Origin: Actinomycetes bacterium
GTDB taxonomy: Bacteria; Actinomycetota; Acidimicrobiia; Acidimicrobiales; Palsa-688
Assembly: GCA_021838445.1 (NCBI GenBank)
Contig: JAKCDU010000011.1
Location: 1 to 64,000, forward strand
Length of the DNA: 64,000 nucleotides
Direction: 5' to 3'
Shown here: in pieces, positions 3,778 through 30,142 of the stretch
How the letters are laid out: every line of letters starts with the position of its first letter
Position numbering within the stretch: position 1 is the first letter of the stretch
The notes under the pieces: model-generated
What the model was told of the DNA's origin: nothing
Seen by the model: the letters and a program-made list of their open reading frames with translations, nothing else
Database searches by the model: none
Program-made: the position numbers and the translations under genes

Positions 3778-4608
3778 TTACTGGAGGAGCTTGAGGACCA
3801 GAGACGGGCTCTGCTGAGCTTGGCTCAGCATGGCCACGCCGGACTGCATGAGGATTTGGTCCGTGCTGTAGGTCGTCGTCGCCTGAGCGAAGTTGACGTC
3901 CACCAGACCCGAGTAGGCGGCCTGCAGGTTCTGCTGGCCGACGGTCAGGTTGGCCACGATGGCGTTCAGCTGGTTCTGGGTGGCACCCACATTGGCTTCG
4001 ATCGACGCCACCGAGTTGATGGCGGCCTGGACCGACGCCACCGCCGCAGCCGCCGAGGCGGCCGAAGCCACGCTCAGACCCGAAACGGCCAGGGCACCGG
4101 TGGAGGCGCCGCTGATGCTGAGGGTCAGCTGGTTGGAGGTGTTGTCGAAGGCACCGACCTGGAGGGTCTGGTTGGAGAAGGTTCCGTCCAGCAGGTTCGT
4201 CGTCCCGAACGAGGTGGTGTTGGCGATCTGGTCAATCTGATTGGCCAGAGCCTGGAACTCCTGGTTGTTGGCGTTCAACGAGTTCTTGTCGTTGGTGGCG
4301 CCGTTGGCGGAGCTCAGGGCCAGGGAGTTCATGGTCTGAAGGATCGAGGTGATCTGGTTCAGCGCCCCGCTGGCGGTCTGGATCAGGGAAACGCCGTTCT
4401 GGGCGTTGCTGATGGCCTGGGTGTAACCGTTGGACTGCGACTGCAGGCCTTGGGCCACGACGTACCCGGCAGGGTTGTCGGCAGCCGTCTGAATCTGCAG
4501 ACCCGACGACAGCTGGGAGATGGCCTTGCTCATGGCCATGTCCGTCGAGTTGACGTTGTTGTAAGCGTTGAGCGCTGTGAGGTTGCTGTTGACTACGAGA
4601 GAAGACAT
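3778..4608 (-). CDS. fliC: Flagellin
   Basis: This 276-residue compact flagellin has the conserved N-terminal D0/D1 helices (VNSNLTALNAYNNVN ... ISQLSSGLQIQTAADNPAGY) and the C-terminal D1/D0 helices ending in LSQAQQSPSLVLKLLQ. Only a short variable segment lies between them, so the surface-exposed domain is small. ATG 4608 follows a near-perfect AAGGAGGA ribosome binding site. The frame is open to 4779, but that extension has no flagellin homology. The protein is exported through the flagellar type III system and forms the filament. The adjacent glycosyltransferase island suggests it is glycosylated. The 5' leader carries features described separately. Confidence 0.97.
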   Translation of the reverse strand: MSSLVVNSNLTALNAYNNVNSTDMAMSKAISQLSSGLQIQTAADNPAGYVVAQGLQSQSNGYTQAISNAQNGVSLIQTASGALNQITSILQTMNSLALSSANGATNDKNSLNANNQEFQALANQIDQIANTTSFGTTNLLDGTFSNQTLQVGAFDNTSNQLTLSISGASTGALAVSGLSVASAASAAAAVASVQAAINSVASIEANVGATQNQLNAIVANLTVGQQNLQAAYSGLVDVNFAQATTTYSTDQILMQSGVAMLSQAQQSPSLVLKLLQ

Positions 4609-4612
4609 CCGG

Positions 4613-4640
4613 TCCTCCTTGACACGGGCCACGACTCCTT
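4613..4640 (-). promoter_or_regulatory. Two AAGGAG motifs in the fliC leader (candidate CsrA sites)
   Basis: On the minus strand the fliC leader holds AAGGAGGA (4613-4620), which is the ribosome binding site, and a second AAGGAG (4635-4640) 20 nt upstream. In Bacillus subtilis hag mRNA, CsrA binds two such GGA-containing sites, one overlapping the Shine-Dalgarno sequence. csrA and fliW occur in this window, so a similar control is plausible. This is an inference from motif layout only. Confidence 0.4.
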
Positions 4641-4730
4641 CGGTGCCCTGGATTGGGTGAAGCGTGTCCGACACCGCCTGACGGTGGTGGCCGGCACAGA
4701 ATTCCTCGACACCAGAACTTCCCGAGTTGA

Positions 4731-18258: not shown

Positions 18259-18561
18259 GTGATCGTCCTAACCCATTTCGGCAACGGCCATCGGATCGCG
18301 TTGAACGTCGACCTCATCGAGAAGGTCGAGGAGACGCCCGACACGGTCATAACGCTCGTCAACGGCACCCGTTACCTGGTGCAGGAGTCGCTGGACGACA
18401 TCATCGACAAGACGGTCTGCATGCGGGCCCGCATCCTGCACCTGTCGCAGACCATGCCCGAGCAGCCCGACGGCTACCGGCTCAGGTTGGTGCGCGGCCT
18501 CGAGGCCTCGGTGACCGAGAAGATCGACGGTCCCACCGGTGGGGAGGTCGACGAACGATGA
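18259..18561 (+). CDS. flbD: FlbD/SwrD-type flagellar protein
   Basis: This 100-residue protein has the FlbD (SwrD) signature: MIxLT..NG at the N-terminus, LNVDLIEKVEETPDTVITLVNG (split over about residues 14-35), then YLVQES. The family is usually encoded beside motAB and in Bacillus increases motor power. The C-terminal 40 residues extend beyond the usual domain of about 70 residues. GTG 18259 has GAGGAG 8-10 nt upstream. Its stop overlaps the motA start (ATGA). Confidence 0.88.
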   Translation: MIVLTHFGNGHRIALNVDLIEKVEETPDTVITLVNGTRYLVQESLDDIIDKTVCMRARILHLSQTMPEQPDGYRLRLVRGLEASVTEKIDGPTGGEVDER

Positions 18562-19340
18562 AACCGACCCCCCTCGACCGCCTCACCCCCATGGCCGTCG
18601 GCGGCGCGCTGGGCCTGGTCTTCCTCGCCATGATCCTCGACGGCTCCAGCCCGGCCGTGCTGTTCAAGCCGGCGCCGCTCATCCTGGTCTTCGGGGGCAC
18701 CGCCGCGGTGGGCGCGGCGGGCTTCATGAAGCGTGACCTCAAGGAGATCAAAGGGCTGCTCATGTCGGCCTTCGGGGTGCCCGACCCGCCGACCGCCGAC
18801 GACATCGACAGCGTCTTCGAGTTCGCCTCGATCGCCCGCAAGGACGGGCTTTTGGCCCTCGAGTCGGCCTCCAAGGACATCACCGACCCGTTCCTCAAGC
18901 AGTGTGTGCAGCTGACCGTGGACGGCACCGACCCCGAGGAGATGCAGGACATCCTCGAAGGCGAGATCGCCGCCGCCGAGGAGCTGAACAAGATGGGCGC
19001 CAAGTTCTTCCAGGACCTCGGCGGCTTCTCCCCCACCCTCGGCATCATCGGCACCGTGGTCGGCCTGATCCATGTGCTGGCCAACCTCAGCAACCCCGGC
19101 TCGCTCGGTGCGGCCATCGGCTCGGCGTTCACCGCCACCCTGTGGGGAGTGCTGGCCGCCAACGTGTTCTGGCTGCCCATCTCCAACAAACTCAAGCGGG
19201 CCGCGGCCATCGAGACCCAGCGCAAGCGGATGATCGTCGATGGCATGCTCGCCGTGCAGGCCGGCAGCAACCCCCGCATGATCCGGGCCCGCATGGAGGC
19301 CTACCTGCCTCCGTCGGCCAAGGAAAAGGAGGCGGCGTGA
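18558..19340 (+). CDS. motA: Flagellar motor stator protein MotA
   Basis: This 260-residue MotA/PomA family protein has four membrane segments: two near the N-terminus, a cytoplasmic loop (LKQCVQLTVDGTDPEEMQDI) with the charged rotor-contact region, and TM3/TM4 in GGFSPTLGIIGTVVGLIHVL and GSAFTATLWGVLAANVFWLP, with the conserved prolines. Together with MotB it forms the ion-driven stator. ATG 18558 overlaps flbD and its TGA overlaps the motB GTG. Confidence 0.96.
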   Translation: MKPTPLDRLTPMAVGGALGLVFLAMILDGSSPAVLFKPAPLILVFGGTAAVGAAGFMKRDLKEIKGLLMSAFGVPDPPTADDIDSVFEFASIARKDGLLALESASKDITDPFLKQCVQLTVDGTDPEEMQDILEGEIAAAEELNKMGAKFFQDLGGFSPTLGIIGTVVGLIHVLANLSNPGSLGAAIGSAFTATLWGVLAANVFWLPISNKLKRAAAIETQRKRMIVDGMLAVQAGSNPRMIRARMEAYLPPSAKEKEAA

Positions 19341-20155
19341 GCGGTGGCCGGCGGGGCCGGCGGGGACACCACGAGGAGGAGGTGGAGAACAGCGAGCGGT
19401 GGCTGCTCACCTACGCCGACATGATCACCCTGCTGCTGGCCCTGTTCATCGTGCTGTTCGCCATCTCCACCATCAACCAGAAGAAGTTCCTGGCCCTGGC
19501 CCTGGGCCTGAAGGAGAGCTTCGACCCCAAGCCGGGGGTGCTGCAGAGCGGCAACGGGCTGTTGAACAACGCCAGCTTGACCCAGACGGCCGGGAGCACT
19601 TTCAAGATCGCTGGTCTACCGGTGACCTCGACCACCACCGTCCCGGCCGGCACCAACCAGAACCCGTCGGGCAACGCCCAGACCAACGCCACCCTGCAGA
19701 AGCTGCAGGCCCAGATCCAGGCCCAGCTGGGCGCCGCCGGTCTCACCGGCAACGTCAGCCTCCAGCTGGAGACCCGCGGCCTGGTGGTTCAGATCCTGGC
19801 CGACAAGGTGTTCTTCGCCACCGGGTCGGCCGACCTGGGTCCCCAAGGTAACCGGGTGGTCGACGTCGTGGCATCGGTGCTCAAGTCCTACACCTTCAAT
19901 GTCGACGTGGAAGGGTACACGGACAACCAACCACTCGTCGGCGGGCCGTACGGCTCCAATGAGGAGCTGTCGGCCGTCCGGGCCGTAAACGTGGTCCTCC
20001 GCCTGGAGAACACCGACGGCATCAACCCGGCCCGCTTGTCGGCCACCGGTTACGGCTCCAGCCGCCCGATAGTCCCCAACAACTCGCCTCAGAACATGGC
20101 CGAGAACCGCCGTATCGACATCGTCATCCTCACCTCACAGAGCGCCCAACCATGA
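19337..20155 (+). CDS. motB: Flagellar motor stator protein MotB
   Basis: This 272-residue protein has a single N-terminal membrane helix (WLLTYADMITLLLALFIVLF) containing the ion-binding aspartate, then a linker, then an OmpA-like peptidoglycan-binding domain (VFFATGSADLGPQG, VEGYTDNQP, SATGYGSSRPI, NRRIDIVI). The helix resembles proton-type MotB more than sodium-type MotS. GTG 19337 overlaps the motA stop and follows AAGGAGG. Confidence 0.95.
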   Translation: MSGGRRGRRGHHEEEVENSERWLLTYADMITLLLALFIVLFAISTINQKKFLALALGLKESFDPKPGVLQSGNGLLNNASLTQTAGSTFKIAGLPVTSTTTVPAGTNQNPSGNAQTNATLQKLQAQIQAQLGAAGLTGNVSLQLETRGLVVQILADKVFFATGSADLGPQGNRVVDVVASVLKSYTFNVDVEGYTDNQPLVGGPYGSNEELSAVRAVNVVLRLENTDGINPARLSATGYGSSRPIVPNNSPQNMAENRRIDIVILTSQSAQP

Positions 20156-20628
20156 GCAACGTCACCGCCGAACAGATCGCCGCCGGGGCCGAGGCCCCCC
20201 CCAAGAAATCCAAGAAGAAGCTGTTCATCATCATCGGTGTCGTGGTGCTGCTCATCGGGGGCTACGAGGCCAAATCGATACTCCTGGCGCCCCACTACAA
20301 AGCTGGACAAAAGGTTCCTGACGGAAAGATTGTCCCTCTGGACCAGATCACCGTCAATACGACCGATAACCACTACGTGCAGCTCAACGTCTCCCTGCAG
20401 CTGACCGCGGTGGCCAACGCCAGCACCATATCCGCCGACCTGCCCCGCTTCGACGACGCCGCCATCTCGGTGATCGGTGCGGAGACGTCGACCCAGCTGC
20501 TGGCGCCTGGGGGCAAGGACGCGGCCAAGGCGGCCATGCTCGAGGACTTCCAGAAGATCGCCGGCACCGTCGACGGGGCGGCGCAGCAGATATCGGCGGT
20601 CTATTACACCAACATCATCATCCAATAG
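20152..20628 (+). CDS. fliL: Flagellar basal body-associated protein FliL
   Basis: This 158-residue protein has a short cytoplasmic N-terminus, a lysine-rich stop (KKSKKKLFIIIGVVVLL), one membrane helix (about residues 24-43), and a periplasm-facing FliL domain (ITVNTTDNHYVQLNVSLQL, then KDAAKAAMLEDFQKI). FliL surrounds and supports the stator. It overlaps motB by 4 bp, completing a flbD-motA-motB-fliL unit. Confidence 0.92.
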   Translation: MSNVTAEQIAAGAEAPPKKSKKKLFIIIGVVVLLIGGYEAKSILLAPHYKAGQKVPDGKIVPLDQITVNTTDNHYVQLNVSLQLTAVANASTISADLPRFDDAAISVIGAETSTQLLAPGGKDAAKAAMLEDFQKIAGTVDGAAQQISAVYYTNIIIQ

Positions 20629-20639
20629 GTGGCACACAC

Positions 20640-21152
20640 ATGACAGAGCCGGGCCCCAAGTCCGAACCCCCCGACTGTGAAGCCCTGCTGGCGTGTCTGG
20701 CTGAGGAGCAGGACGCCCTCGGGAGGCTGCTGTTCAAGCTGCGCGAACAGCACCTCATCCTGACCTCCGGCGAGCACCGGTGGCTGGAGCCGAGCACGAG
20801 CGAGGTGGAGTCGGCGGTCAGGCAGCTGACTGCTGTCGGACAGCGCCGGGAGGCCATCGCCGGGCGGGTCCACGCCGCCCACGGCCTGCCCGCCGGAACG
20901 ACCCTGGCCCGCCTGGCCGAGAGGGTCAGCGACGAGCTGCTCTGCCAGCAACTCCACCAGCGCCAGCGCTCCCTGCGCGACGTGCTCGACCAGGTCCGCC
21001 GCTCGTCGCGTCAGAACCGCCGGCTGCTGGCGACGGGTCTGGCCGCCACCAACGACGCACTGGCCGTGCTCGGAGCGGTACCGACCTACGACGCCGAAGG
21101 CCTCGCCACCCACTCGCTGCCGTCGACGCGTTCCTTCGACGCCCGGATATAG
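20640..21152 (+). CDS. flgN: FlgN-family export chaperone
   Basis: This 170-residue, almost entirely helical protein has heptad-like stretches (LLACLAEEQDALGRLLFKL; QQLHQRQRSLRDVLDQVRR) and sits directly before flgK and flgL. FlgN chaperones the hook-filament junction proteins FlgK and FlgL to the export gate. The assignment rests on length, helical pattern and position; sequence identity in this family is low. ATG 20640 is 11 bp after fliL. Confidence 0.8.
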   Translation: MTEPGPKSEPPDCEALLACLAEEQDALGRLLFKLREQHLILTSGEHRWLEPSTSEVESAVRQLTAVGQRREAIAGRVHAAHGLPAGTTLARLAERVSDELLCQQLHQRQRSLRDVLDQVRRSSRQNRRLLATGLAATNDALAVLGAVPTYDAEGLATHSLPSTRSFDARI

Positions 21153-21161
21153 GAGGCCACA

Positions 21162-22508
21162 TTGGGCAACCTCGGACTCTCCATCGCCGCCACAGGGGTA
21201 AACGCGTCGCAGACCGCGATGGACAACATCGCGGAGAACCTGGCCAACACCAACACCCCCGGATACGTCGACCAGACGGCCAACCTCACGGCCAGCGCCA
21301 TGGTCGGGCCCTACGCCGTGGGCGGGGGGGTGTCGGTCACCTCCATCACCCAGGCCAACGACGCAATACTGGCGACCAACTCCAACCAGACTCAGGGTTC
21401 CCTGTCGCAGTCCACGGCCCTCCAGCAGGTGCTGCAGCAGGCTCAGATGGCCTTCCAGAACCCCTCGTCGACGTCCGGCCTATCCAACGATCTCTCCAAC
21501 TTCTGGCAGTCGTGGGATCAGGTCACCGCCAACCCGAGCAGCAGCGCCGCCCGCCAGGGGGTCATCGACTCGTCCCAGACGGTCGTCTCGGACCTGCAGC
21601 AGGCCACCACCCAGCTGCAGAGCACCGCGGCGGGGGCCAGCGCCCAGCTGACCTCGACGGTCTCCCAGGTCAACGGTTACCTCGCGCAGATGGCCCAGCT
21701 CAACAGCCAGATCGTCCTGGCCAAGAGCAGCGGCGGCTCCATCAACTCCCTCATGGACCAACGCAACGCGGTGATGACCGACCTGGCGTCCTCGATCGGC
21801 GCCACCGGGGTCAGCCAGCCAGACGGTTCCCTCCTGGTGCAGGTCGGAGGGGTGACCCTGGTCCAGACCAACTGGTCGGACACCGTTGCCCTCAAGGCGA
21901 CCGGGGGCGTCACCCAGCTGGTGGCCCAGACCAGCAACGTCACCGTCAACCCCTCGTCGGGCACGGCCGCGGGCCTGATGGCCGCCGTCAACCAGTACCT
22001 GCCCGGATTCCAGACCCAGCTCGACGCGGTGGCCAACAACCTCGCCAGCACGGTGAACACCCAGCTGGCGGCCGGCTTCACCGCCACCGGGGCAGCCGGC
22101 CCGGCCCTGTTCACAGGAACCGGAGCAGGTGGCATCGCCGTCAACCCGGCCGTCGTGGCCGACCCCACCCTCATCGCTGCAGCGAGCACCTCGTCGCTGC
22201 CGGCGGCGACCAACGACGGGTCCAACGCCCAGGCCATCGCCAACCTGTACAACTCGCCGGGTGGCCCCGACGCCACCTACCGGACCCTGGTGCAGAACGT
22301 CGGGGACCAGGTCGCGGCGGTGAACGACTCGGTGTCGTCCAACACGTCCTTGGCCAACACCGCCAAGCAGAACCTGCAGGCCGCCGTCGGGGTCAACCAG
22401 AACAACGAACTGGTGAGCCTCATGAACTTCCAGCAGACCTACCAGGCCGCGGCCAAGGTGATCTCCACCGTGGACTCGGCGGTGCAGTCACTGCTCAACG
22501 CGGTCTGA
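21162..22508 (+). CDS. flgK: Flagellar hook-associated protein 1, FlgK
   Basis: This 448-residue protein has the rod/hook-type N-terminus (SIAATGVNASQTAMDNIAEN, then LANTNTPGYV) and the C-terminal helix of FlgK (NELVSLMNFQQTYQAAAKVI). It forms the first hook-filament junction ring. The start is TTG 21162, supported by AGGAGG 5 nt upstream. The length is at the short end for FlgK, so the outer domain is small. Confidence 0.95.
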   Translation: MGNLGLSIAATGVNASQTAMDNIAENLANTNTPGYVDQTANLTASAMVGPYAVGGGVSVTSITQANDAILATNSNQTQGSLSQSTALQQVLQQAQMAFQNPSSTSGLSNDLSNFWQSWDQVTANPSSSAARQGVIDSSQTVVSDLQQATTQLQSTAAGASAQLTSTVSQVNGYLAQMAQLNSQIVLAKSSGGSINSLMDQRNAVMTDLASSIGATGVSQPDGSLLVQVGGVTLVQTNWSDTVALKATGGVTQLVAQTSNVTVNPSSGTAAGLMAAVNQYLPGFQTQLDAVANNLASTVNTQLAAGFTATGAAGPALFTGTGAGGIAVNPAVVADPTLIAAASTSSLPAATNDGSNAQAIANLYNSPGGPDATYRTLVQNVGDQVAAVNDSVSSNTSLANTAKQNLQAAVGVNQNNELVSLMNFQQTYQAAAKVISTVDSAVQSLLNAV

Positions 22509-22541
22509 CGGGCACGGAGAAAGCGAGCGAACGGACATCCC

Positions 22542-23462
22542 ATGAGCAACCTCTCGGCCATCAACTACACGCCCACCATCATCGCCAACCAGTTGGTGAG
22601 CAACCTCAACACCGACCAGACCCAGCAGTCGCAGCTCGAGACGCAACTGTCGACGGGGACGCTCGTCAACAGCCCGTCGGACAATCCGGCCGCCGCGTCG
22701 TCGCTCATGTCACTCGATTCGACCCTGAGCCGGACCCAGCAGTACCTGACCAACGCCAACGACGGGGTGGGCTGGCTGTCGCTCGGCACCTCCACCCTCA
22801 ACTCGGTGATCACCACGCTGCAGCAGGCCCAGCAGTCGGTGCAGGCCCTGTCCGGGAACACCCTGACCGGGTCCCAGGCGGCCATCACCGGCACCGTCGC
22901 CCAGCTGCAGTCGAGCATGTCCGAGGTGCTCAACCTGGCCAACACGACCTACGGCAACCAGGCCATCTTCGCCGGCACCGGCAACGTCGCCCAGGCCTAC
23001 GACAGCTCGGGTAACTACATCGGCGGGGGCAGCGCCCCGACCCGGACGGTGGCCCCCGGCGTGACCCTCCCTGTCGCGGCGACCGGCCCGGCGGTGTTCG
23101 GCACCGGCACCAGCGGCCTGCTCGGGCCGACGGGGGTGCTGCAGACCCTCATAACCGACGTGCAGACCGGCACCCCGGCATCCCTGAAGAAGGCCTACAC
23201 CACCGATCTGAGCGCCCTTGGCTCGGCCATCACGACGGTGGAGGGCCAAGCCGCCGTCCTCGGTGCCAGCTATCAGCGGATGCAGGCCTTCGCCAACCAG
23301 GCGACCAGCGCCCAGACCGCCCTGCAGACCCAGATCTCCTCCATCGACAGCGTCAACGTGGCCCAGGCCACCACCCAGCTGGTCCAGGAGCAGAACACCT
23401 ATCAGACCGGCCTTTGGGCCACGGCCCAGATCGAGCAGCACTCGCTCGTGTCCTACCTGTGA
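22542..23462 (+). CDS. flgL: Flagellar hook-associated protein 3, FlgL
   Basis: This 306-residue flagellin-like junction protein has an N-terminal coiled region with STGTLVNSPSDNPAAASSLMSL and a C-terminal helix SVNVAQATTQLVQEQNTYQTGLWATAQ (split), ending in LVSYL. It forms the second junction ring between hook and filament. It sits 33 bp after flgK and 13 bp before fliW. Confidence 0.93.
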   Translation: MSNLSAINYTPTIIANQLVSNLNTDQTQQSQLETQLSTGTLVNSPSDNPAAASSLMSLDSTLSRTQQYLTNANDGVGWLSLGTSTLNSVITTLQQAQQSVQALSGNTLTGSQAAITGTVAQLQSSMSEVLNLANTTYGNQAIFAGTGNVAQAYDSSGNYIGGGSAPTRTVAPGVTLPVAATGPAVFGTGTSGLLGPTGVLQTLITDVQTGTPASLKKAYTTDLSALGSAITTVEGQAAVLGASYQRMQAFANQATSAQTALQTQISSIDSVNVAQATTQLVQEQNTYQTGLWATAQIEQHSLVSYL

Positions 23463-23475
23463 CAGGAATGCAGCT

Positions 23476-23943
23476 TTGACCATAACCTTCACCAATGGGA
23501 GCGAAACGGTGACCCCCGCCGGCGAGGTGCCGGGCGGGCTGACCGAAGGCGTCTCCGTGGACTTCCCGGCCGGCCTGCCCGGCTTCGCCGATGCCCACCA
23601 CTTCCTGCTCGAGGATCTCGGTGAGCAGCTGCGCCCCTTCCAGCGCCTCCGTCACACCGGGTCCCCCGAGATCGCCTTCACCGTAGTGCTGGCCGGCCTG
23701 CTCTACCCCGACTACAGCGTGGAGATCGACGAGGACCACCAGGTGACCCTCGGCATCACCGGGGCCGGCGAGGTGGCCACCTACGTGATGATCACCGTGC
23801 CCAGACCCCCCCAGCCTCCCACCGCCAACCTGCTCGGCCCGATCGTGGTCAACCGCCGCACGGGAGCCGCCGCCCAGGTGGTGCAGCACCGCTCCTCCTA
23901 CCGGGTGGCCGAGCCGCTGCCCACCGCCCGCCGCCCGGCCTGA
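23476..23943 (+). CDS. fliW: Flagellar assembly factor FliW
   Basis: This 155-residue protein has the FliW pattern VDFPAGLPGFADAHHFLL, then PFQRLRHTGSPEIAFTVV, then LYPDYSVEI. FliW binds flagellin and, when free, binds CsrA and relieves its repression of flagellin translation. I chose TTG 23476 because AGGA lies 7 nt upstream and the homology begins shortly after. The longer frame upstream overlaps flgL. The gene is last in the flagellar operon and convergent with csrA, as expected for this regulatory pair. Confidence 0.9.
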   Translation: MTITFTNGSETVTPAGEVPGGLTEGVSVDFPAGLPGFADAHHFLLEDLGEQLRPFQRLRHTGSPEIAFTVVLAGLLYPDYSVEIDEDHQVTLGITGAGEVATYVMITVPRPPQPPTANLLGPIVVNRRTGAAAQVVQHRSSYRVAEPLPTARRPA

Positions 23944-23992: not shown

Positions 23993-24427
23993 CTACTCGG
24001 TGGCGCCGGGGAAGAGGCCGGCCAGGCCCGAGAGGTCCTCCTCGGCGCTGGCCTGCACCGCCAGGCGGTTGGCCTCCTGCATCTGCTGGTAGACCTCCTC
24101 CCGGTAGATGAGGACGTGGGGTGGGGCCTCGATACCGATGCGCACCGACTCGTTGGACACGGCCTGCACGGTGAGGACGACCTCGTCGTTGATACGCAGC
24201 CCGGGGCGGGGCCGGCGTGACAGGACGTGCATCACCGCGGGCTCCCAGGCCCGGTCCCGGCTCTTCATCTCGGCTGCCACTTCGGCCTGGTCGAGGCGTT
24301 CGACCTTCACCTCACCGGGGCCGGAGACGCTCAGGCACACGTCGTCACCCGAGACCAGCTCAACCCGCACGGTTATGTCGTGGCCGACCAGGATCGACGA
24401 CCCGGCCCGGCGGCTGAGGACGAGCAC
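23993..24427 (-). CDS. csrA: CsrA with two tandem CsrA domains
   Basis: This 144-residue protein is about twice the normal CsrA length (61-80) and carries two CsrA-like repeats. Repeat 1 (residues 1 to about 55) starts MLVLSRRAGSSILVGHDITV but is degenerate where RIGIxAP and HREE should be (CLSVSGPGEVKVERLD). Repeat 2 (66 to about 124) starts MHVLSRR and is canonical (VRIGIEAPPHVLIYREEVY, with the RNA-binding Arg). About 20 residues of tail follow. CsrA is normally a strand-swapped homodimer that binds GGA motifs in mRNA and is antagonised by FliW; here one chain could form a pseudo-dimer with one good RNA site. GTG 24427 is 5 nt after the DUF3566 stop, with CGGAG upstream, so it is probably expressed with the gyrase genes. 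Confidence 0.9.
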   Translation of the reverse strand: MLVLSRRAGSSILVGHDITVRVELVSGDDVCLSVSGPGEVKVERLDQAEVAAEMKSRDRAWEPAVMHVLSRRPRPGLRINDEVVLTVQAVSNESVRIGIEAPPHVLIYREEVYQQMQEANRLAVQASAEEDLSGLAGLFPGATE

Positions 24428-24431
24428 CGGG

Positions 24432-25538
24432 TTACTCCGGCCTCAGCGTCTCTAGCTCGACGCGCACGCCGCCGACGACGTCGGCAATGAGGTTGTAGAT
24501 CAGGGCGAACACGACGCTGCCGACCATCCCGACCAGGGCGATGACCCCTCCGACAAGGCCGGTGTACTCGGCGATGACGGTGGGGTGCAGCCGGAAGGAC
24601 TTGAGGCTGAAGAGGGTACGGATGGACTTCTCGATGGACGGGAGGCTGCCGAAGACATTGGCCGCCTCGTAGAGCAGGATCGCGGCCACCACCACCGCCG
24701 CCAGCATGACCAGCCAGAACATCAACGACACCCGAATCACCGTGAGCAGGTCCAGGTGACGGATAGTAGCCCGGCTGCGCACCCGGGTCGGGCGGGCCCG
24801 GCGGCGCCGGTCGGTCAGCACCACGTCGGGGCCGCCGCCCCGCAGGTCGGGGTTTCGGGGGTCGGTGTCGGGCCCCAATCCGTTGCTCTCGATGTCGGCA
24901 GCGGGGTAGGGGCGGCGGCGGGGGCCTCTCGTCACCGGAACGGCCATGGTGTCGGCCATGGAGGGACCGCCGGGCAGCCCCCCGGCGGGCGGGAAGGCCG
25001 GTTCGGGGGCCAGGCGGGGCCTGGGTTCGGCCCGCCGGGGCCTGGACCGCTCGTTGGTGACCGAGCCCGGGAGGGGCACGGCCATCATCCCGTCGGCGCC
25101 GGCCAGGGGGGCCTCGGCGCCGGCCAGGGGGGCGAAGGCCGGCAGCTCGGAGCCGGCGGAGGCGGCCCGGCCGTCGCCCTGCAGGCGGCTGCGCCACGAG
25201 GACACGGGGCGGCGGGGGGGCTCGGCCGGGACCGGCGCGGAGCGGCCCGCGGCCGGTCGGCCCGATCCGCCCGGGTTGGCACCCCGGCTGGGAAACCCGT
25301 CGCGACCTGACCCGTCGCGACCTGAAGGTGACGGGGCAGGCCCGCGGTTGGGCGAGCCGTCGCGGTCGGAACCCGAGGGGCGAGCGGCCGGGTCAGCCCA
25401 GTCGTCATGGGGAGCCGGGCGCGCCGGACCGGCCGACCACAAAGACCCGTACTCCGCGGGGACCGGGGAACCCCATCCCCCGTCCTCGGAGTCGGCCCGG
25501 TCACGGTCGGAGGGCGGGCGACCGGGCGTGTCCACCAT
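24432..25538 (-). CDS. DUF3566 transmembrane protein
   Basis: This 368-residue protein has a long Pro/Gly/Arg/Ser-rich, probably disordered N-terminus (about 1-245). Its C-terminal DUF3566 domain carries two membrane segments (LMFWLVMLAAVVVAAILL and GLVGGVIALVGMVGSVVFAL) and ends in VVGGVRVELETL. The gene directly after gyrA in many actinobacteria, including mycobacteria (Rv0007), encodes this family. Function is unknown. It lies 17 bp after gyrA and 5 nt before csrA. Confidence 0.88.
   Translation of the reverse strand: MVDTPGRPPSDRDRADSEDGGWGSPVPAEYGSLWSAGPARPAPHDDWADPAARPSGSDRDGSPNRGPAPSPSGRDGSGRDGFPSRGANPGGSGRPAAGRSAPVPAEPPRRPVSSWRSRLQGDGRAASAGSELPAFAPLAGAEAPLAGADGMMAVPLPGSVTNERSRPRRAEPRPRLAPEPAFPPAGGLPGGPSMADTMAVPVTRGPRRRPYPAADIESNGLGPDTDPRNPDLRGGGPDVVLTDRRRRARPTRVRSRATIRHLDLLTVIRVSLMFWLVMLAAVVVAAILLYEAANVFGSLPSIEKSIRTLFSLKSFRLHPTVIAEYTGLVGGVIALVGMVGSVVFALIYNLIADVVGGVRVELETLRPE

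Positions 25539-25555: not shown

Positions 25556-28024
<2,469 letters not shown>

Positions 28025-28180: not shown

Positions 28181-30142
<1,962 letters not shown>

Follow-up and report, generated by a model that had tools for sequence, protein, structure and literature searches.

The characterised members of the CsrA/RsmA family are short single-domain proteins (61 aa in E. coli and 75 aa in C. jejuni) whose homodimers offer a pair of equal RNA sites and a pair of FliW sites. The RNA surface is composite, in that beta1 of one subunit meets beta5 of its partner (PMC7652899, PMC7829508), and V51 and N55 are the FliW-contact residues (PMC7829508, PMC6529632). Engineered mixed dimers have so far been used to ask whether CsrA needs two RNA and two FliW sites; a mixed B. 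subtilis dimer of wild-type and N55D subunits, for example, is inhibited by one FliW (PMC6529632). A rearranged and likewise short relative (64-79 residues) is RsmN/RsmF of Pseudomonas aeruginosa (4KJI, 4K59). A survey of actinobacterial flagella (PMC10746217) names CsrA only in its list of genes searched. No description of a tandem or single-chain CsrA was found in the literature searched, of which the coverage was incomplete and the absence therefore weak, and within that limit the suggestion of the first-pass annotation that the protein described below is an undescribed CsrA variant still stands.

The window (the whole 64,000-nucleotide stretch of DNA that was analysed) contains a csrA gene that encodes two CsrA domains in one chain, referred to below as D1 and D2:

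23993..24427, minus strand, csrA as a single-chain tandem of 144 aa, starting with GTG at 24427 (ORF and translation; Pfam/NCBIfam CsrA twice)
24260..24427, minus strand, domain D1, residues 1-56, with five strands followed by a short helix (PF02599 E 4.3e-11; AF2)
24233..24259, minus strand, linker, residues 57-65, with R57, R59 and W61 invariant
24059..24232, minus strand, domain D2, residues 66-123, strands and a long helix in AF2 (PF02599 E 5.1e-17)
24435..24438, minus strand, Shine-Dalgarno-like GGAG, which overlaps the 3' end of the DUF3566 gene (stop 24434-24432)

Two CsrA repeats had been read from the sequence at first pass, and each half was indeed found to match PF02599 when searched alone. 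Residues 1-44, the repeat for which a failed profile search would have spoken against the reading, gave E 4.3e-11 and 43.0 bits, and residues 66-118 gave E 5.1e-17 and 62.0 bits (cut-off 27 in both cases), with 100.2 bits for the whole 144-aa protein; the NCBIfam CsrA models agreed with Pfam on two domains. Single-domain CsrA proteins score about 70-95 bits, against 62 and 43 for the tandem halves. The short single-domain chain typical of the CsrA/RsmA family is the feature that this protein of 144 residues and two domains lacks. No CsrA besides the tandem was found in the window genome, and neither a promoter and terminator scan nor an Rfam search of the window returned anything.

The tandem architecture occurs in five genomes, the window genome included, which belong to three genera. 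An independent MAG (L033, JAGWSF010000039.1) carries a protein 97% identical to that of the window and was the one tandem found in a scan of genome contigs that reached close relatives only; identity to the window protein is 61-62% in G402 and G403 and 50% in G303. The remaining CsrA-bearing members of the window's family have a single domain, and no tandem of the same type was seen outside this family in samples of the class, order and phylum (395, 397 and 396 genomes); in the phylum-wide sample CsrA was present in 73 of 396 genomes and the tandem only in the window genome (G000). Such copies in independent assemblies and genera rule out an assembly artefact or chance. In a tree of the separate domains, the D1 and D2 clades were each supported at 100/100 and had an identical inner order with G303 as the first branch in both, so that one fusion in the ancestor of the five tandems, followed by vertical descent, accounts for them. 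Horizontal spread was considered and rejected, as none of the matching plasmid (174) and phage (15) records covered 80% of the query. Judged from its sequence, the tandem is a real, inherited and uncommon CsrA variant and otherwise an ordinary CsrA member.

Several other peculiarities of csrA were seen among the relatives. The contig of the independent MAG bears the title Acidobacteriota but falls in the window's genus and has the same gyrB-gyrA-DUF3566-csrA order; it is possibly mislabelled. Most single CsrAs of the window's family (L035-L042, L049) have H and not R at position 7 (LVLTRHVHQS), unlike the tandems. The single-domain CsrA of G410 (L046) contains about 12 extra residues (RSRCSCGARQDG) between beta3 and beta4, and in G134 (L056/L097) the CsrA match runs over two frames, an apparent frameshift, in a gene convergent with fliW. 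Four genomes of family f3 (G362, G269, G596, G360) carry extra short CsrA-like genes that match to about position 45 and have no helix. About ten dispersed, near-identical short csrA-like fragments (VEVADVRGRQVRLAVTAPPEVAVTRQEVSGR), several of them near contig ends, were found in G052 (L130-L135); they resemble a repeated or mobile element that includes part of csrA.

Since the CsrA RNA surface is composite, the segments of the tandem were assigned to two sites, A and B, each combining beta1 of one domain with beta4-beta5 of the other:

24407..24424, minus strand, beta1 of D1 (L4, R6, R7), first half of site A (identity 1.00 across tandems; profile score 16.2)
24095..24154, minus strand, beta4-beta5 of D2 (R31, G33, A36, P37, V40, I42, R44), second half of site A (profile score, identity, dN)
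24212..24229, minus strand, beta1 of D2 (L4, R6, R7 kept; H or Y at position 2), first half of site B (profile score, identity)
24290..24349, minus strand, beta4-beta5 of D1 (C31, S33, G36; V42 and R44 kept), second half of site B (profile score, identity, dN)

Strand-by-strand scores for both halves of the five tandems were obtained with a profile made from 38 distinct single-domain CsrAs belonging to the same class. D1 scored above D2 over beta1 and beta2, and D2 above D1 over beta4, beta5 and the helix, in 5/5 tandems each time; beta3 had no consistent side. The first-pass picture of one degenerate and one intact domain does not fit this result, because each domain has both standard and diverged parts, distributed according to the composite sites and not the domain boundary. 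The second repeat, which had been taken as intact, is clearly diverged in its first half, its beta2 scoring -1.1 to 1.5, whereas no single-domain CsrA used scored below 10.5. Across the tandems, the key positions of D1 read L4, R6, R7; C31, S(Q)33, G36, P37, V42, R44; and K(S)55, and those of D2 read L4, R(K)6, R7; R31, G33, A36, P37, I(V)42, R44; and N(S)55. Both halves of the window protein therefore contain the RNA-contact residues L4, R6, R7, V42 and R44, except that position 42 of D2 is I. As to the residues that the first repeat was said to have lost, R31, G33 and A36 (now C, S/Q and G) and N55 are gone, but the YREE arginine is kept, being R44 in the ungapped register (V-E-R-L-D) and invariant in all five tandems.

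Substitution rates among the tandems that have fliW (G000, G402, G403) are distributed in the same way: dN is 0.00-0.05 in beta4-beta5 of D2 and 0.28-0.41 in beta4-beta5 of D1, and amounts to 0.04-0.19 in beta1-beta3 of D1 and 0.08-0.42 in beta1-beta3 of D2. D1 is nevertheless under purifying selection. In the tandem genes dN stays below dS, and the frames are intact in all three genera; dS in these comparisons is high to saturated and the dN/dS ratios are hence rough. If the two halves pair as CsrA subunits do, the standard pieces (beta1 of D1 and beta4-beta5 of D2) would meet in one site of the pseudo-dimer and the diverged pieces in the other. The asymmetric pseudo-dimer with one good RNA site proposed at first pass thus remains the best reading in so far as one site is standard; site B keeps L4, R7, V42 (I/V) and R44, with R or K at position 6, in all five tandems and cannot be called dead.

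The neighbourhood of the gene includes flagellar genes:

24432..25538, minus strand, DUF3566 gene directly upstream of csrA (PF12089 E 1.3e-14)
25556..28024, minus strand, gyrA (ORF recognised by reading)
28181-30130, minus strand, gyrB, upstream of gyrA in the same direction (ORF recognised by reading)
23476..23943, plus strand, fliW, convergent with csrA (PF02623 E 6.5e-28; start codon uncertain)
18561..23462, plus strand, motA-motB-fliL-flgN-flgK-flgL, upstream of fliW (Pfam)
24059..24094, minus strand, C-terminal helix of D2 with the N55 equivalent N120 (24070-24068), predicted single FliW contact (identity; PMC7829508, PMC6529632)

The genes gyrB-gyrA-DUF3566-csrA are co-directional, and four bases separate the csrA GTG from the DUF3566 stop. 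This neighbourhood is repeated in L033, G402 and G403, and the gyrB-gyrA order of the window was recovered by phmmer at L033, L088 and L089. The window genome has fliW and flagellin genes, and fliW adjoins csrA; the co-directional, translationally coupled fliW-csrA arrangement of the B. subtilis type is absent here, the two genes lying convergently on opposite strands, and the single-domain csrA of the class mostly follows fliW on the same strand. The FliW-contact residue N55 corresponds to N120 in the helix of D2 and to K in D1 of the window protein. This reverses the earlier idea that the degenerate half might serve for FliW binding, for N55 is kept only in D2. The tandem-bearing genome G303 (94% complete) yielded no fliW, flagellin or FliF; there position 55 of D2 is S and beta4-beta5 of D2 is relaxed (dN about 0.35), changes that fit a release from FliW and flagellin control in what is a single case. 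The csrA loci of G303 (L052) and G406 (L096), found with no flagellin, FliW or FliF, may have another role or be leftovers; many of the assemblies are drafts made up of numerous contigs, which leaves some doubt about gene absences.

The AF2 model of the window protein, built from five sequences, is of moderate quality (pLDDT 75, pTM 0.65). Of the monomer prediction suggested at first pass, the part concerning D1 came out well, with the full strand order (strands 2-5, 11-14, 18-26, 29-35 and 42-45, helix 47-56), but beta1 of D2 (61-71), which is needed for a pseudo-dimer, stayed below pLDDT 50 and formed no confident strand. Intramolecular strand swapping would accordingly be expected from homology and not read off the model, for which the top Foldseek matches were the CsrA chains 2bti, 1vpz and 5z38 (probability 0.95-0.98, E about 0.2-0.35).

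A second lineage of single-chain CsrA was found in family f14 of the window's order, where 11 genomes have CsrA-like chains of 183-204 residues (L065-L075, L078-L087), all of which match PF02599 and most of which have strong GGAGG-type motifs before the start. The halves of this long form are homologous to each other (HHalign E 1.7e-11, 74 columns). Relative to single-domain CsrA, the second half contains an extra 24 residues forming a beta hairpin, and the half-to-half alignment places the same insertion in the first, so the CsrA unit was probably enlarged first and duplicated later. Because the extra hairpin occurs in both f14 halves and in neither tandem half, the two duplications were probably separate; one shared origin of both forms was weighed and set aside as the less simple account. 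The FliW tree gave no decision between shared and separate origin, and in the FlgL tree the tandems and long forms stand side by side, G395, a genome with a normal CsrA, being placed beside the tandems. Nothing comparable to the long form was seen in viral contigs.

In the f14 chains, the split in conservation described above is taken to completion. The N-terminal L4, R6 and R7 and the C-terminal G33, A36, P37, V42, R44 and N55 are invariant in 11/11, leaving one site and one N55, and the pattern of second-half beta1 and first-half beta5 is lost in all 11, so that the counterpart site is gone. Identity is 0.97 for beta1 in D1 against 0.50 in D2, and 0.63 for beta5 in D2 against 0.22 in D1. The AF2 model of the G660 protein is a confident single-chain fold (pLDDT 90, pTM 0.80) with 15 strands and two helices, to which the PDB offered no whole-fold match; the helices are placed after beta5 in the models of the tandem and the long form. 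In nine of the 11 genomes csrA converges with flgL-fliW, directly adjacent in six and with a gap of about 0.7-1.1 kb in G647, G533 and G595; fliW and csrA lie on one strand in G621, and no fliW was found in G256.

The predicted target of the tandem lies in the same window:

3778..4608, minus strand, fliC (flagellin, 276 aa), predicted mRNA target (PF00669 E 1.2e-32; start by reading)
4626..4648, minus strand, fliC leader hairpin with GGA in its loop, predicted CsrA site, about 30 nt upstream of the start

A hairpin with a GGA loop is present 30-37 nt upstream of fliC in 3/3 tandem and 8/9 long-form leaders seen, and the GGA is lost from it in G256, the long-form genome with no fliW found. Pairing in eight long-form leaders reached 92%, compared with 31-39% when slid, and covariation in the long-form hairpin was no better than in shuffles (131-144 of 500). 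Single-domain relatives, such as G395 and G227, have GGA-loop fliC hairpins too. On this sequence evidence, the leader hairpin argues that the ordinary CsrA-flagellin link persists. Since a second GGA of the window leader sits in the Shine-Dalgarno sequence (aaGGAGGAccggATG), the leader does not separate a one-site from a two-site CsrA.

The two CsrA domains, their common inheritance, the split in conservation, the neighbouring fliW and the hairpin of the fliC leader are best joined by the following reading, to which we assign a probability of roughly 0.6. The fused halves would most likely fold on each other intramolecularly as the usual strand-swapped dimer does, giving a pseudo-dimer in one chain. 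Site A (beta1 of D1 and beta5 of D2) would bind the GGA-loop hairpin of the fliC leader and thereby hold down flagellin translation, site B (beta1 of D2 and beta5 of D1), which has drifted, would probably have a weaker or different grip on RNA, and the only docking point for FliW would be the C-terminal helix of D2 with its N55, one FliW thus releasing one CsrA molecule. Folding within the chain, binding of RNA and FliW and the 1:1 ratio are what the homology and the residue pattern would lead one to expect.

According to the alternative that survives best, which we still regard as unlikely, the fusion only makes dimerisation permanent and both RNA sites work: site B, drifted in its framework, would still bind RNA, perhaps of another sequence, and the protein would bridge the leader hairpin and the Shine-Dalgarno sequence. 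The contact residues kept in site B, the good conservation of D1 beta4 itself (identity 0.79) and two GGAs retained about 21-30 nt apart in the fliC leaders, a spacing inside the bridging range of 10-63 nt (PMC7652899), are what this alternative would predict; it does not account for the replacement of R31, G33 and A36 in D1, for a beta4-beta5 that evolves several times faster in D1 than in D2, or for the complete loss of site B in the long-form lineage.

A more doubtful alternative assumes two products of one gene, the full tandem and a D2-only CsrA started at Met66 that would form an ordinary homodimer. In every tandem the Met66 codon is ATG with TGGGA ahead of it (24259-24230 in the window), anti-Shine-Dalgarno pairing there is at least equal to that at the GTG start (where it is weak in G303, G402 and G403), and D2 alone keeps L4, R/K6, R7, V/I42, R44 and mostly N55. 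The methionine is, however, the expected relic of the second copy's start, the codons for W61-[DE] force TGGGA, and pairing as strong as that at Met66 occurs at 15-57% of positions in tandem genes. Purifying selection on D1 and a first half of D2 that is among the most diverged regions also speak against an independent D2 product.

The two chain ends could also be conserved merely because constraint was relaxed around the fusion point, but the positions that stay frozen are the reported RNA and FliW contacts, which the long form has likewise kept. That the gene is a decaying csrA kept by chance, as the sub-normal scores of both halves and the retention of the tandem in G303, where no flagellar genes were found, might suggest, is very improbable given dN below dS with intact frames across three genera, the nearly frozen beta4-beta5 of D2, the position of the tandem as the only csrA in genomes with fliW and fliC, and the parallel case in f14.

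If the pseudo-dimer reading with one standard site is combined with the f14 data, a wider proposal can be made, which we hold tentatively and at a little under even odds: two or more independent internal duplications within one order would have produced single-chain CsrA, selection each time keeping one composite RNA site and one FliW site and giving up the other, so that a one-handed CsrA would operate in a 1:1:1 ratio with FliW and flagellin mRNA, with the f14 chain as a new fold variant of the CsrA superfamily.

Compared with the known systems, the tandem resembles CsrA/RsmA (PF02599, TIGR00202) in the match of both halves, the presence of L4, R6, R7 and R44, the fliW neighbour and the GGA hairpin of fliC, and differs from it as a single chain of 144 residues in which the two sites are unequal and N55 occurs once. 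It differs from RsmN/RsmF in that the helix position is not rearranged, the helices being predicted after beta5; a 29-residue hairpin of the f14 long form overlays 4KJI and 4K59 at 0.6-0.7 A, and the sequence match of RsmN/RsmF to either single-chain form is poor (E 0.19-0.24 over 29 residues only). The long form shares with the tandem the single chain, the retention of site A and one N55, a mostly convergent position with flgL-fliW and a similar fliC hairpin, and is set apart by an extra beta hairpin of about 24 residues per unit, the loss of the site B residues and the lack of a whole PDB match. The same asymmetry has been engineered in B. subtilis CsrA-hetero (wild type/N55D, PMC6529632), with one FliW-competent half, and, as Mercante 2009 is relayed in PMC7652899, in E. 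coli CsrA with R44A in one subunit, which has one RNA-competent site; these are made of two chains and were obtained by mutation, and the tandem is a natural single chain. Nature offers a graded series, from the homodimer through a tandem with one standard and one drifted site to the one-site long form, and all three forms apparently serve one flagellin switch.
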